Assembly (NCBI GenBank): GCA_018607835.1
Contig: JABBAS010000070.1
Location: forward strand, 9,158 to 64,353
From: Methylobacillus sp.
GTDB taxonomy: Bacteria; Pseudomonadota; Gammaproteobacteria; Burkholderiales; Burkholderiaceae_C
Reading direction: 5' to 3'
Length of the DNA stretch: 55,196 bases
Shown piece after piece: positions 43,176-48,823 of the stretch. Position numbers and translations under genes: made by a program. The notes beneath the pieces were generated by a model, which was not told the origin of the DNA, searched no databases, and saw nothing but the letters and a program-made list of their open reading frames with translations. The first letter of the stretch is position 1, and each line of letters starts with the position of its first letter.

Positions 43176-44081
43176 CTAGTCCTTGCCGCGCATGAAGGCG
43201 CGTAAGGCATCGGCGCAGGCTTGCGGTTGCTCCTCTGGCAAGAAGTGGCCGCACGCCAAGGCCGCACCCTCGACCGTGCCGGCGCATTGCGCTTGCCACA
43301 AGGTCATGGGGTCAAAGAGCCGTTGCACGATGCCGTTGGCACCCCATAACACGAGGGTGTCGCAACGTATTTTCTCCCCTTTGGCCCGGCTTTCACGGTC
43401 GTGGTCTAAGTCCACTCCCGCGCTGGCCCGGTAGTCTTCGCACATATTGGCAATAACGGTCGGCGTGAACGCCTCTTCGTAAACGGCCAAGGCCTCGGGC
43501 TCTATGTGGCTGATGCCGCCGGTACCCCAACCGCCTAGCTTGGCGTGCAAGTACGGGATGGGGTTGCCTCCGATCATTTGCTCAGGAACGGGCGCGGGTT
43601 GTATCAAGTGAAACCAATGGTAGTAGGCGCGTGCAAACGCCATGTCGGTTGCGGCGTACATGTCGAGCGTGGGTGCAATGTCCATGACACATAAGGCAGT
43701 GACCCGTGACGGGTGATCAAGGGCTAAGCGGTGCGCCACTCGGCCGCCGCGGTCGTGGCCGCAGAGATAAAACCGATCAACCCCTAGGGCGTCAGCCAGC
43801 TGAACCACGGCCTTAGCCATCACGCGTTTGCTCATCTGCTGGTGGTCGTCGCTGGGCGGCGGTGCCGTGCTGCGGCCGTAGCCGCGCAGGTCAGGGATGA
43901 TGAGGTGGAAATCATCGCGCAGCGCCTGTGCAACGGGGTGCCACATGACATGGGATTGCGGAAACCCGTGCAATAACACCAAGGCGGGTTTGTTGCCTTG
44001 GGGTGTTGCGGACGTGCACACATGTACTTGCTGGCCGTCGATGGCCAGTGTCTTCGTCTCAAAACCGTTAAACCAGCTCAT
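43176..44081 (-). CDS. alpha/beta hydrolase, fluoroacetate (haloacetate) dehalogenase-like
   Basis: A 301-residue alpha/beta hydrolase. Residues described for fluoroacetate dehalogenases appear in place: D110 nucleophile with R111 and R114 (GHDRGGRVAHRLALDHP), D134 acid, H155-W156 of the halide pocket (YYHWF), W185 (KLGGWG), Y217 (MCEDYRA) and H279 base (ACGHFLPEE). The expected reaction is haloacetate plus water to glycolate plus halide; epoxide hydrolases share the fold but not the HW/Y pocket. It overlaps cinA by four bases (ATGA) and is last in the antiporter-thiL/pgpA-cinA operon. Confidence 0.87.
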   Translation of the reverse strand: MSWFNGFETKTLAIDGQQVHVCTSATPQGNKPALVLLHGFPQSHVMWHPVAQALRDDFHLIIPDLRGYGRSTAPPPSDDHQQMSKRVMAKAVVQLADALGVDRFYLCGHDRGGRVAHRLALDHPSRVTALCVMDIAPTLDMYAATDMAFARAYYHWFHLIQPAPVPEQMIGGNPIPYLHAKLGGWGTGGISHIEPEALAVYEEAFTPTVIANMCEDYRASAGVDLDHDRESRAKGEKIRCDTLVLWGANGIVQRLFDPMTLWQAQCAGTVEGAALACGHFLPEEQPQACADALRAFMRGKD

Positions 44082-44611
44082 GATGCACCCTCCTGTCTGT
44101 TGTCTAAGTGTTGCCGCAATTGCCCAATGGCGTAAGCAACGGCTTGGGTCCGCACAGCCGCCCGGTCTCCGCTAAAGTCGCGCCGCTCTGTCCAGACTTC
44201 TGTGCCGACAGACCACGCAAACCAAACCAGGCCAACGGGCTTCTCAGGCGAGCCGCCAGTGGGGCCTGCAATGCCTGTGGTGGCGATGGCGATGTGTGTA
44301 TGGGCGTGGCGCTGGGCGCCTATCGCCATGGCCCGGGCAACGGGCTCGCTGACGGCGCCGAACTGGTCGATAAGTGCTGCGTCAACACCGATTTGGGCGG
44401 ACTTGGCTGCGTTGGAGTACGTGACCCAGCCACGGTCAAACCAGGCACTTGAACCGGATACATCGGTGCAGGCCGCCGCGATACCGCCACCGGTACAACT
44501 TTCAGCCGTGGCGAGTAACCAGCCGCGTGCGACCAGATGGTTAGCGATGGCGCTTAGGTCAGCAGACCAGTCGAGTGGGGAAGCGGGTGAGGAAGCGGGT
44601 GGGGTGGTCAT
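44078..44611 (-). CDS. pncC: CinA C-terminal domain protein, nicotinamide-nucleotide amidohydrolase
   Basis: A 177-residue stand-alone CinA amidohydrolase domain, which deamidates nicotinamide mononucleotide in the NAD recycling pathway. Family signature: LLATAESCTGGGIAAACTDV, SNAAKSAQIGV, ATTGIAGPTGGSPEKPVG. The competence-associated N-terminal domain is absent, as in E. coli PncC. It follows the thiL-pgpA fusion by 13 nt and precedes the hydrolase with a 4-base overlap. Confidence 0.92.
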   Translation of the reverse strand: MTTPPASSPASPLDWSADLSAIANHLVARGWLLATAESCTGGGIAAACTDVSGSSAWFDRGWVTYSNAAKSAQIGVDAALIDQFGAVSEPVARAMAIGAQRHAHTHIAIATTGIAGPTGGSPEKPVGLVWFAWSVGTEVWTERRDFSGDRAAVRTQAVAYAIGQLRQHLDNRQEGAS

Positions 44612-44624
44612 GACGGGTCCGAGG

Positions 44625-46190
44625 TTAGCGCGGCCAGAGGGTGGGCAACCAATGCAAGCCTAGCGCCCAGACAAACAAGGTTAGACCAGCGGCGATGAGG
44701 TCATCGAACATGACGCCAAATCCACCGACCCACCCAAAACCTTTAAAGCGCTGGTCTGCCCACTTGGTCGGACCGAACTTCACCGCATCAAAAAATCGGA
44801 ACAAGCCAAACGCGAGCAATTGGGCCAGTAGGCCAGCGGGCATGATCAGCCACAACACCAGCCAGAACGCGATGACCTCATCCCACACCATATGACCGGA
44901 GTCGGCGATGCCCATGTCTTTCGCGCATTGCTTACAGGCCCAACAGCCCAAGAAAAATCCACCCGTAATCAGCCACAGCCAGTGGGTTGAGGACAGCAAG
45001 GGGCTCAGGGCCAAAAAGGCAACCCACGCCCACAACGTGCCGACCGTGCCGGGTGCAAACCGCGTCAAACCGGAGCCAAATCCCAAAGCCAGCAAGCGTG
45101 CAGGATGACCAAACATAAATCGCCATGTGGGACGCACGGCGGAGGTGTCTGTCGGCGACGGCGTTGCGTTGTTTGTAGGGTCTGAAGCCGTGGGCATAAA
45201 GTGATCATAGCCTCGGTAGGCGTTGGGCAAAACCGCACCGGCATGGTCTCGCAGCACCAACTCGGTCGTTTCGGTGGTCTGCCCGATACGCGTGAGGGGC
45301 AGCCCCAGGGCCAACGACAGATCGGCCATTGCGGCGCGTTGCGTGGGGGGTGCCGTAAAAAGCAATTCGTAGTCATCACCACCGGCAAACGCGATGCGTC
45401 GCCGTGTGTCCGGTGCCATGAGGGCCAACACCTCGCTACACGGGAGGCTATCCAGGTCAATCTGCGCGCCACAACCACTTGCACGTAACAAGTGCACCAA
45501 GTCGCCTGCCAAGCCATCGCTCACGTCCATTGCCGCGCTGGCGAGTCGGCGCAAAGCCAGCCCCAGTTCGATACGAGGGGTTGGCGTCTCCATGCGGGCA
45601 ATCACCGCGTCGATTTGCTTGCGTGATAAGAGGCTACGCACCATGGTGTCATCGGGGTGGTTCGCCGTCCATTGCAACGCCAACGCGGCGTCACCTAGCG
45701 TACCGCTGACGTAGATGTCCTCTCCAGGCTTGGCGCCGTCGCGGCGAAGGGCATGTTCTGGCGCAACCTCCCCCATCACGGTGATCGCAATGGTTAAGGG
45801 GCCGCGCGTGATATCGCCGCCGATGAGGGCGCACTGATGGACATTTGCCAATTGCATCAAGCCCTGGGAGAAGGCTGCCAACCACGCATCGTCGGTTTGC
45901 GGGAGGGCGAGGGCGAGCGTAAAGCTCTTGGGCTCTGCCCCCATCGCCGCCAGATCGCTTAAGTTTACGGCTAAGGCCTTGTGCCCGAGCTTGGCCGGTG
46001 AGACGTCTTCAAAGAAGTGGCGTCCGGCAACCAACATGTCGCTGGACACGGCCAGCAAGTCGCCGGGGCGGACCTGCGTGAGCGCGCAGTCGTCACCCGG
46101 GCCCAGTGCAACATGCGACGCACGCGTTGGGCCACTGCCCAACGTGTTGGGCGTGATGAAGTGGCGTCGAATGAGGTCGAACTCGCTCAT
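44625..46190 (-). CDS. thiL-pgpA: fused thiamine-monophosphate kinase / phosphatidylglycerophosphatase A
   Basis: A single 521-codon frame holds two complete enzymes. Residues 1-331 are ThiL, which phosphorylates thiamine phosphate to the pyrophosphate: GPGDDCA (31-36), GGDITRG (124-130), DVSDGLAGD (222-230), GGDDYELLFT (270-279). After a Ser/Thr/Pro-rich linker (332-353), residues 354-521 are PgpA, which dephosphorylates phosphatidylglycerol phosphate: FGSGLTRFAPGTVGTLWA, MVWDEVIAFW, FRFFDAVKFGPTKWAD and GGFGVMFDDLIAAG, with several membrane helices. In other proteobacteria these are separate neighbouring genes; here the membrane domain would tether the kinase to the inner membrane. It starts 11 nt after the antiporter stop. 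Confidence 0.93.
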   Translation of the reverse strand: MSEFDLIRRHFITPNTLGSGPTRASHVALGPGDDCALTQVRPGDLLAVSSDMLVAGRHFFEDVSPAKLGHKALAVNLSDLAAMGAEPKSFTLALALPQTDDAWLAAFSQGLMQLANVHQCALIGGDITRGPLTIAITVMGEVAPEHALRRDGAKPGEDIYVSGTLGDAALALQWTANHPDDTMVRSLLSRKQIDAVIARMETPTPRIELGLALRRLASAAMDVSDGLAGDLVHLLRASGCGAQIDLDSLPCSEVLALMAPDTRRRIAFAGGDDYELLFTAPPTQRAAMADLSLALGLPLTRIGQTTETTELVLRDHAGAVLPNAYRGYDHFMPTASDPTNNATPSPTDTSAVRPTWRFMFGHPARLLALGFGSGLTRFAPGTVGTLWAWVAFLALSPLLSSTHWLWLITGGFFLGCWACKQCAKDMGIADSGHMVWDEVIAFWLVLWLIMPAGLLAQLLAFGLFRFFDAVKFGPTKWADQRFKGFGWVGGFGVMFDDLIAAGLTLFVWALGLHWLPTLWPR

Positions 46191-46201: not shown

Positions 46202-47491
46202 TTAAGGGACGCGCGGCGGCTCGCCAGTCTCTTCCGTCTCTGTTGTTTCTGTTGCAGGCTCGCCCGGGTGCGCGTGCGCTACGGGGGGCGATGACGTGCC
46301 TACGGCAGGGGCATCCCCCGACCAGCGAAGGGCTCGGGCGACGATGGGAGGGCCCATCGTTTCAAAAATTGCCACGGCGGCAAAGATGACCGAGGCTACG
46401 GTGGCTCCCGCGTAAGGGAATTGCGCGGTGGTGGTGTTGGCTAATCCAATCGCCATGCCTGCCATGGGTAAGAGGTTGAGACCCGCGTTTAAATTGGTCT
46501 TGCGTGGCCAGTGCATCAAGGTGCCCGTGGCGGCGACACCGACCCACTTTGCCGCGCTACGGGCCAGCACAAAAATCAGTGCCGCTGGCGCGAAGGCGAG
46601 CATTTCCTTTAAGTGCAAGTTGGCGCCGGCGTAAACAAAGAGTGCAATAAAGAACAACTCAAATGCGGGGCCAAACTCCATATCTGCCAGTAAGTCCTCG
46701 CGCTCGAGCGAGGCCACAACAGCGCCCAAAACCAAGGGCGCAAACAACACGGATAGGTCAAAGGTGATGGCCAATCCCAAGGTCATGCTGACTGCCCCCA
46801 CGACCAAGGCCAAGCTGTACTGCGCCGCGCGTTTGGTGGTGCGAGCGACCCGGTGCAGGGCATAGCCCATGACGCAACCTAAAAAAGTGGAGCCCAATAA
46901 TTGATAGGCTGGTCCGCCGATCATGGTCTGCAACGGTGCGTTGGATTCGAAGTACAGCAGTGGTAGCAGTCCGGCGAAGACCAAAAAAGCAAACATGTTG
47001 TTGAGTGCAACCAACGCTTCGGAGCGGTCGGTGGTTAAGCCTTTAGCGCCTAGCTCGTGGGCCACGTGCAGCAAGACAGCGGGTGACGATGAAATGGCGA
47101 TGGCCGCAATGACCGCGCTGGGCAATTTTGGAATGCCAAAGAGGCTGAGTGCGAAATAGACGGCTGCAAACGTCAATGTGCTCTCAACCAAGGACACGAT
47201 CAGCAGGGCCTTGTCCTTGAGCATGCTGCGCACGTCGATACTCAAGCCCAAGCGGTACAAAATGAGAGCAAGCGCGATATCGATGACGATTTTGGCGCGT
47301 TCTAAGGTTTCGTATCCAAACAGATGTAGGCCGTTTGGCCCTGTGATAATCCCGACCAGCATGAAGCCCGTGATACTGGGAATCCATTCAATACGGTGCG
47401 CCAAATAGCCGCCCAGCGCGCCACAAAAAAGCAGCAAGCCAAAGAAAAACAAGGTGCTAACTTGCAGTGGTAGAGCGGGTAAAAAGTCCAT
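46202..47491 (-). CDS. cation:proton antiporter, CPA2 (Kef/NhaS-type) membrane protein
   Basis: A 429-residue membrane protein with about twelve helices. It begins with GALGGYLAHRIEWIPSITGFMLVG and contains AIAISSSPAVLLHVAHELGAKG, a region where CPA2 antiporters carry their ion-binding residues. There is no C-terminal RCK/TrkA-N domain; the tail after residue 390 is a disordered Pro/Thr/Glu-rich stretch. It would exchange Na+ or K+ for protons. It is the first gene of the minus-strand run thiL-pgpA, cinA, hydrolase. Ion specificity unknown. Confidence 0.87.
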   Translation of the reverse strand: MDFLPALPLQVSTLFFFGLLLFCGALGGYLAHRIEWIPSITGFMLVGIITGPNGLHLFGYETLERAKIVIDIALALILYRLGLSIDVRSMLKDKALLIVSLVESTLTFAAVYFALSLFGIPKLPSAVIAAIAISSSPAVLLHVAHELGAKGLTTDRSEALVALNNMFAFLVFAGLLPLLYFESNAPLQTMIGGPAYQLLGSTFLGCVMGYALHRVARTTKRAAQYSLALVVGAVSMTLGLAITFDLSVLFAPLVLGAVVASLEREDLLADMEFGPAFELFFIALFVYAGANLHLKEMLAFAPAALIFVLARSAAKWVGVAATGTLMHWPRKTNLNAGLNLLPMAGMAIGLANTTTAQFPYAGATVASVIFAAVAIFETMGPPIVARALRWSGDAPAVGTSSPPVAHAHPGEPATETTETEETGEPPRVP

Positions 47492-48136: not shown

Positions 48137-48823
48137 ATGACGACCTCAACCTACCGTATTGCCCCGTCTATTTTGTCCGCTGACTTTGCCAAACTGGGAC
48201 AAGAAGTCAGCGATGTGATTGCCGCTGGTGCCGACTGGATTCACTTTGACGTGATGGACAACCACTACGTCCCCAATCTGACCTTCGGCCCCATGGTATG
48301 CCAGGCACTCAAGCCCCACGCGAAAACAGCGCAAGGGGTTGCGGTACCCATCGATGTGCACCTCATGGTGAGCCCGGTCGATAGCTTGGCTGCAGCGTTT
48401 GCCCAAGCGGGAGCGGATTTGGTGAGCTTTCACCCCGATGCCTCCAGCCACGTGCATCGCAGTGTCCAGGCGCTGAAATCTCACGGCGTTCAGGTGGGGC
48501 TAACGTTTAACCCCGCCGAGCCGCTCGATGTGTTGGACTGGTTGATTGACGACATTGACCTGGTGCTGATCATGAGCGTTAACCCGGGCTTTGGTGGTCA
48601 GAGTTTTATTGATTCCGCCTTGCGCAAGATTGCAGACGTACGCCAACGCATAGACGCGTGTGGAAAAGACATCCGTTTGGAAGTCGACGGCGGCATCAAG
48701 ACCGAGAACATTGCCCGTGTTGCGGCCGCTGGCGCCGACACGTTCGTGGCGGGTAGCGCTATTTTTAGTCAACCGGACTACGCTGGCGTCATTCGTGACA
48801 TGCGCCAGGCGCTGGCCAAATGA
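48137..48823 (+). CDS. rpe: ribulose-phosphate 3-epimerase
   Basis: A 228-residue TIM-barrel epimerase interconverting ribulose-5-phosphate and xylulose-5-phosphate. Motifs: [33 protein letters not shown] (metal/catalytic Asp), VDVHLMV-type [21 protein letters not shown], and LEVDGGI. The stop overlaps the gph start as ATGA. rpe-gph-trpE is a conserved order in Burkholderiales. Confidence 0.97.

Follow-up and report, generated by a model that had tools for sequence, protein, structure and literature searches.

ThiL (thiamine-phosphate kinase) catalyses the final step in making the vitamin B1 cofactor TPP, and PgpA (phosphatidylglycerophosphatase A) is a membrane phosphatase. In Escherichia coli, thiL and pgpA are neighboring genes (b0417/b0418) that overlap by 23 nt, and the thiL and pgpA pairs of proteobacteria specify two separate proteins. 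At the E. coli locus (L138:1635-5501), the other strand carries yajO and dxs next to thiL/pgpA, and the annotation gives each of them as a 1-deoxyxylulose-5-phosphate synthase. According to the available part of one report, E. coli PgpA is modelled with five transmembrane helices and uses soluble triose phosphates as substrates on the cytoplasmic side, with D86, D93, E94 and R121 as putative catalytic residues and C75 as a redox switch (PMC13148334). The accessible text of a second report describes an E. coli reporter that TPP represses: its signal rises when pgpA is deleted, even in cells whose thiL is intact, which is read as lower TPP, and falls when pgpA is supplied on a plasmid; the hits of the LB agar screen described there did not include the thiL mutant itself (PMC11143247). 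The view, held in the original prediction for the locus described here, that the two enzymes belong to unrelated pathways needs qualifying in the light of the effect on TPP (PMC11143247) and the activity on triose phosphates (PMC13148334), as far as the available parts of these sources go.

The locus studied here lies in the window (the whole stretch of Methylobacillus sp. DNA that was analysed, 55,196 nucleotides) and has both enzymes, in the E. coli gene order, in one reading frame instead of two. At a probability of about 78%, we consider this a real ThiL-PgpA fusion that arose on the species' own branch, with a 521-residue product that would tether ThiL to the inner membrane; the evidence comes from one assembly of one strain.

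A single frame carrying ThiL and PgpA

The frame of 521 codons fills window positions 44625-46190 on the minus strand, from ATG to a single TAA, and the plus strand of the same interval is interrupted by stops. One ThiL-PgpA protein of this length had been predicted here with the strand left unstated, and both the frame and the domain matches bear it out. The features of the locus are as follows.

46202..47491, minus strand: upstream gene of the Na+/H+ exchanger family (PF00999), 11 nt before thiL
45198..46190, minus strand: codons 1-331, the ThiL half, with the conserved DHF at its C-terminal end (TIGR01379, Pfam AIRS and AIRS_C, aligned to E. coli ThiL and to relatives)
45211..45215, minus strand: CGAGG, Shine-Dalgarno-like, 13 nt ahead of ATG332 and a possible signal for an internal start (best anti-SD duplex -5.9 kcal/mol; also encodes R-G before YDHF)
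45195..45197, minus strand: codon 332, an ATG at which the halves join and pgpA probably once began (abuts DHF; in the sister L052 the pgpA ATG overlaps the thiL TGA 5 nt further on)
45135..45197, minus strand: residues 332-352, S/T/P-rich N-terminal extension of PgpA, predicted disordered (pLDDT; comparable tails in split relatives)
44628..45197, minus strand: PgpA half, codons 332-521 (Pfam PgpA 101.2 bits; catalytic/redox residues; modelled helices)
44625..44627, minus strand: TAA, the only stop codon in the fused frame
44078..44611, minus strand: downstream gene of the PncC/CinA family (PF02464, TIGR00199), 13 nt past the fusion stop

The downstream pncC gene and an alpha/beta hydrolase gene share a 4-nt stop/start overlap at 44078-44081.

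Three Pfam domains scored above their cut-offs in the fused protein, namely AIRS (residues 32-142), AIRS_C (154-314) and PgpA (367-509), the last (PF04608) at 101.2 bits against a cut-off of 28 and with profile positions 2-138 of 141 covered. The NCBIfam model TIGR01379 (thiL) matched residues 21-331 at equivalog level, with 320.7 bits against a cut-off of 184.15. Two further models scored below their cut-offs on the fused protein, NF004350 (ThiL; 315.1 against 441 bits) and NF008288 (PgpA equivalog; 90.3 against 226 bits); we infer, from the score of this protein and not from scores of split relatives, that NF008288 is tuned to enteric PgpA. In alignments that included E. coli ThiL and split relatives, the ThiL half keeps the C-terminal (Y/F)DHF and the conserved motifs, including the GDD, GGD, SDG and GGDDYEL stretches common to relatives. 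In the PgpA half, E. coli residues C75, D86, D93, E94 and R121 align with C419, D430, D437, E438 and R465, all of them kept, and the position of E. coli C69 is occupied by F413. The claim that both halves keep their conserved motifs thus agrees with the profile matches and the alignments. The protein is alike to known ThiL (TIGR01379, 3mcq) over nearly the whole ThiL half and differs from it by the C-terminal PgpA domain, and it is alike to PgpA (PF04608) over nearly the whole profile and the residues and differs in having its N-terminal tail joined to ThiL. In a sequence search of solved structures, ThiL 3mcq was the best match, and no PgpA structure was matched at E 0.001.

Because two full conserved domains meet exactly where ThiL ends and PgpA starts, a chance open frame is ruled against. 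Within its own genome the fused protein had a single other match, of 30.8 bits, in a 784-aa frame that would be PurL, judged by its length; a PF04608 search gave no place besides the fused frame, and no second separate copy of ThiL or PgpA was found in the assembly (2.42 Mb, 76 contigs, 99.79% complete), which elsewhere holds one TMP-TENI place and one PAP2 place.

An AlphaFold2 model (14 rows; mean pLDDT 82.4, pTM 0.62) gave two mostly confident domains, the first a folded ThiL, with a disordered join at 333-351 (pLDDT below 50), and because pTM is only 0.62, it is uncertain how the halves lie relative to each other. Helices are indeed present in the PgpA half, at 380-398, 401-426, 436-449, 454-470 and 489-512 (14-26 residues each). 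In a Kyte-Doolittle scan just two regions, within 434-467 and within 491-516, exceed 1.6; neither of the first two helices of the model reaches this value, and the helix 436-449 is short. With five helices in the model against two hydrophobic regions in the scan, insertion of the PgpA half in the membrane is likely rather than certain, and by the anatomy of the fusion ThiL would be anchored there with it. ATP and TMP are found in the cytoplasm, and with the N-terminus of PgpA on the cytoplasmic side, ThiL would stay in the cytoplasm, beside both substrates.

The junction and its possible origin

The ThiL half ends in D329-H330-F331, the conserved terminus in relatives, and the codon directly after it, 332, is ATG. 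The closest relative is L052, a Burkholderiaceae MAG that apparently underlies the sister genome G004, which has the same junction; its identity is 65.6% in ThiL and 82.8% in PgpA. In L052, thiL and pgpA are two genes and the junction reads CACTTTCCCTCATGAGCG, with the thiL TGA overlapped by the pgpA ATG (ATGA), whereas the fused frame reads CACTTTATGCCC. The start of PgpA is MSDATEETTAPPIGRPTW in L052 and MPTASDPTNNATPSPTDTSAVRPTW in the fused frame. Since ATG332 follows DHF and matches the L052 pgpA start, the supposed linker is the N-terminal tail of PgpA: in place of the dedicated 22-residue Ser/Thr/Pro linker of the original prediction there are 21 residues, from ATG332 to V352, that belong to PgpA itself. 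Split relatives carry comparable PgpA tails ahead of an RPTW/KPNW-like stretch. Their thiL tails beyond DHF are mostly 1-7 residues long, with larger values of 11 and 19, plus a mis-located 321; in a further set of rows the tail was not found.

In the ancestor, thiL and pgpA would have overlapped or nearly so, probably through a 4-nt stop/start overlap like that at 44078-44081. A small indel in the variable C-terminal tail of thiL could have brought the pgpA ATG into the thiL frame and, in the same step, removed the stop from that frame; relative to the thiL tail of one sister sequence, a net loss of 5 nt would suffice. The product would consist of a cytoplasmic ThiL (making TPP from TMP and ATP), some 20 flexible residues from the PgpA N-terminus, and the helical PgpA domain with its active site facing the cytoplasm, as in E. 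coli, so that ThiL would be tethered to the inner membrane in a one-to-one ratio with PgpA. Translation of the whole frame, activity of both halves, the membrane location and the exact mutation all belong to this proposed course of events, by which one gene probably yields a single protein at the cell membrane.

The fused frame might, compatibly with a real fusion, still use ATG332 as a start, so that both the fusion and free PgpA are made. ATG332 does sit at the likely former pgpA start, and the CGAGG upstream of it, at -5.9 kcal/mol, is the second strongest signal of the 15 internal in-frame ATGs scored. Nevertheless, we think this dual output unlikely: the 13-nt spacer between CGAGG and ATG332 is long, CGAGG is simply the R-G codons before YDHF, and termination-reinitiation would have been lost together with the stop. 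The internal-start signal is also weak because the ATG at codon 258, which has no known role, outranks it (-7.3 kcal/mol).

Relatives, and the case for a sequencing or assembly error

The fused protein was searched against 10 genomes of the genus (nine with a match, including its own; G006 without), two sets of the family (150 genomes, 148 with a match; 399 genomes, 390 with a match), and sets of the order (399, 382 with a match), the class (369, 338 with a match) and the phylum (398, 361 with a match), these sets overlapping and their genomes being labelled G000 to G1504. The original prediction had proposed a search for proteins with both domains and a tree. Among the matches listed in the genus, family, order, class and phylum searches, outside which a weak-scoring or long-linker fusion could fall, no second clean ThiL-PgpA fusion appeared, so the fusion draws no support from conservation, and the only matches spanning both domains without a stop between the parts were those of the window and of G611. 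The G611 frame (L115:1453-2964, from another family of the class) was rejected as an independent fusion: TGN stands at its junction and N occurs in five more codons, as would be expected of a frame-patched draft, and its family offered no second genome for comparison. Three further loci (L058, L064 and L068), flagged from matches overlapping across frames, proved split when their junctions were read.

Junctions were read at top-scoring loci, a sampling that favours pairs in the same frame. A first set of 137 loci comprised nine without the ThiL end, 19 without pgpA in the stretch, three non-adjacent pairs and, by subtraction, 11 duplicates, which leaves 95 distinct adjacent junctions, 93 of them split, one that of the window and one that of L115. 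A further set of 17 loci gave 14 readable junctions, all split, so that 107 of the 109 junctions read are split and the window and L115 are the two exceptions. Where both genes could be read, pgpA adjoins thiL at 95 of 98 loci (top-scoring and hence a biased set), in keeping with the earlier statement that the two are neighbours in other proteobacteria. At L032, L037 and L057 the two genes do not adjoin, and pgpA follows thiL at a distance of about 950 to 1850 nt. A 29-mer spanning the junction had no matches (0) in viral contigs.

In a tree of 16 rows the window groups with split G004 (support 100/98), and because this pair is nested within split lineages, the fusion is derived. Synonymous differences from the sister have reached saturation (pS 0.74 and 0.77), which deprives dN/dS of meaning for selection since the fusion. 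Among papers on thiL and pgpA, judged mainly from literature listings, none describing a ThiL-PgpA fusion was apparent.

The rarity of the joined frame raises the question of whether the true genome holds two genes and the fusion is an artefact of sequencing or assembly. The eight genus mates that have both genes, i.e. the sister and seven others, are all split (one of them, L010, with a run of N inside thiL), and the doubtful L115 fusion has its TGN junction codon. The same genome, moreover, joins ThiE (TMP-TENI) and ThiD (Phos_pyr_kin) in one frame of 501 codons (G000:C46:1097-2599, seen as L136:1097-2599 and L156), with a ThiM-like gene for hydroxyethylthiazole kinase upstream of it; in the sister G004, ThiE and ThiD are separate frames overlapping at stop/start. 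As in ThiL-PgpA, adjacent genes are joined at the second gene's apparent own ATG, here the likely former thiD start (CTGATG), but both partners belong to the thiamine pathway and a one-base indel would split them. Since such an indel brings a stop three codons on, the ThiE-ThiD frame may itself be an assembly error, and some assembly error in this genome is therefore conceivable. The ThiL-PgpA junction, however, behaves otherwise. In the other two frames after codon 332 the first stops come only after 42 and 86 codons, so that, with thiL tails of the usual length, no single inserted or deleted base would give a stop near the ThiL end and restore an ordinary gene pair. Over codons 322-355, single substitutions create a stop only at Y325, R326, Y328, S336 and S345, and the first three would clip the conserved end of ThiL. 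The whole window contains no N (count 0), and its other 4-nt stop/start overlaps of open reading frames, e.g. 44078-44081 and 48820-48823, stay split. We consequently regard an artefact at this junction as very improbable.

Chance joining or functional coupling

Given a real ThiL-PgpA fusion, there is the separate matter of why it exists, and we lean towards a neutral event, a chance indel between tightly packed genes that brought no functional coupling with it. Joining would be harmless since the PgpA tail is disordered and faces the cytoplasm, the junction falls in the variable tail, an ATGA overlap can give rise to a fusion in a single easy step, and among the matches listed the clean fusion occurs in one species only; in the available text on the E. 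coli LB screen that linked pgpA to TPP, too, the thiL mutant was not a hit (PMC11143247). Against this stand the E. coli data that tie pgpA to the TPP level, as far as that part of the report extends (PMC11143247), and the 95 of 98 loci, from the biased, top-scoring set (with 19 more lacking pgpA in the stretch), at which pgpA adjoins thiL. By analogy with E. coli, a functional tie between ThiL and PgpA in this organism is no more than possible. Its strongest form would be a true partnership, in which the cell benefits from making TPP at the membrane next to PgpA, PgpA supports TPP formation in E. coli too, and the lineage has joined its thiamine enzymes into two bifunctional proteins, ThiE-ThiD and a membrane-bound ThiL-PgpA, the latter with a domain whose E. 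coli counterpart responds to redox state and has triose phosphates as substrates; we hold this to be improbable.

A natural ThiL-PgpA fusion would provide evidence of the Rosetta-stone type for a link between the two enzymes, as well as a handy object on which to test it, and the case illustrates how genes that overlap at stop and start may fuse through one small indel.
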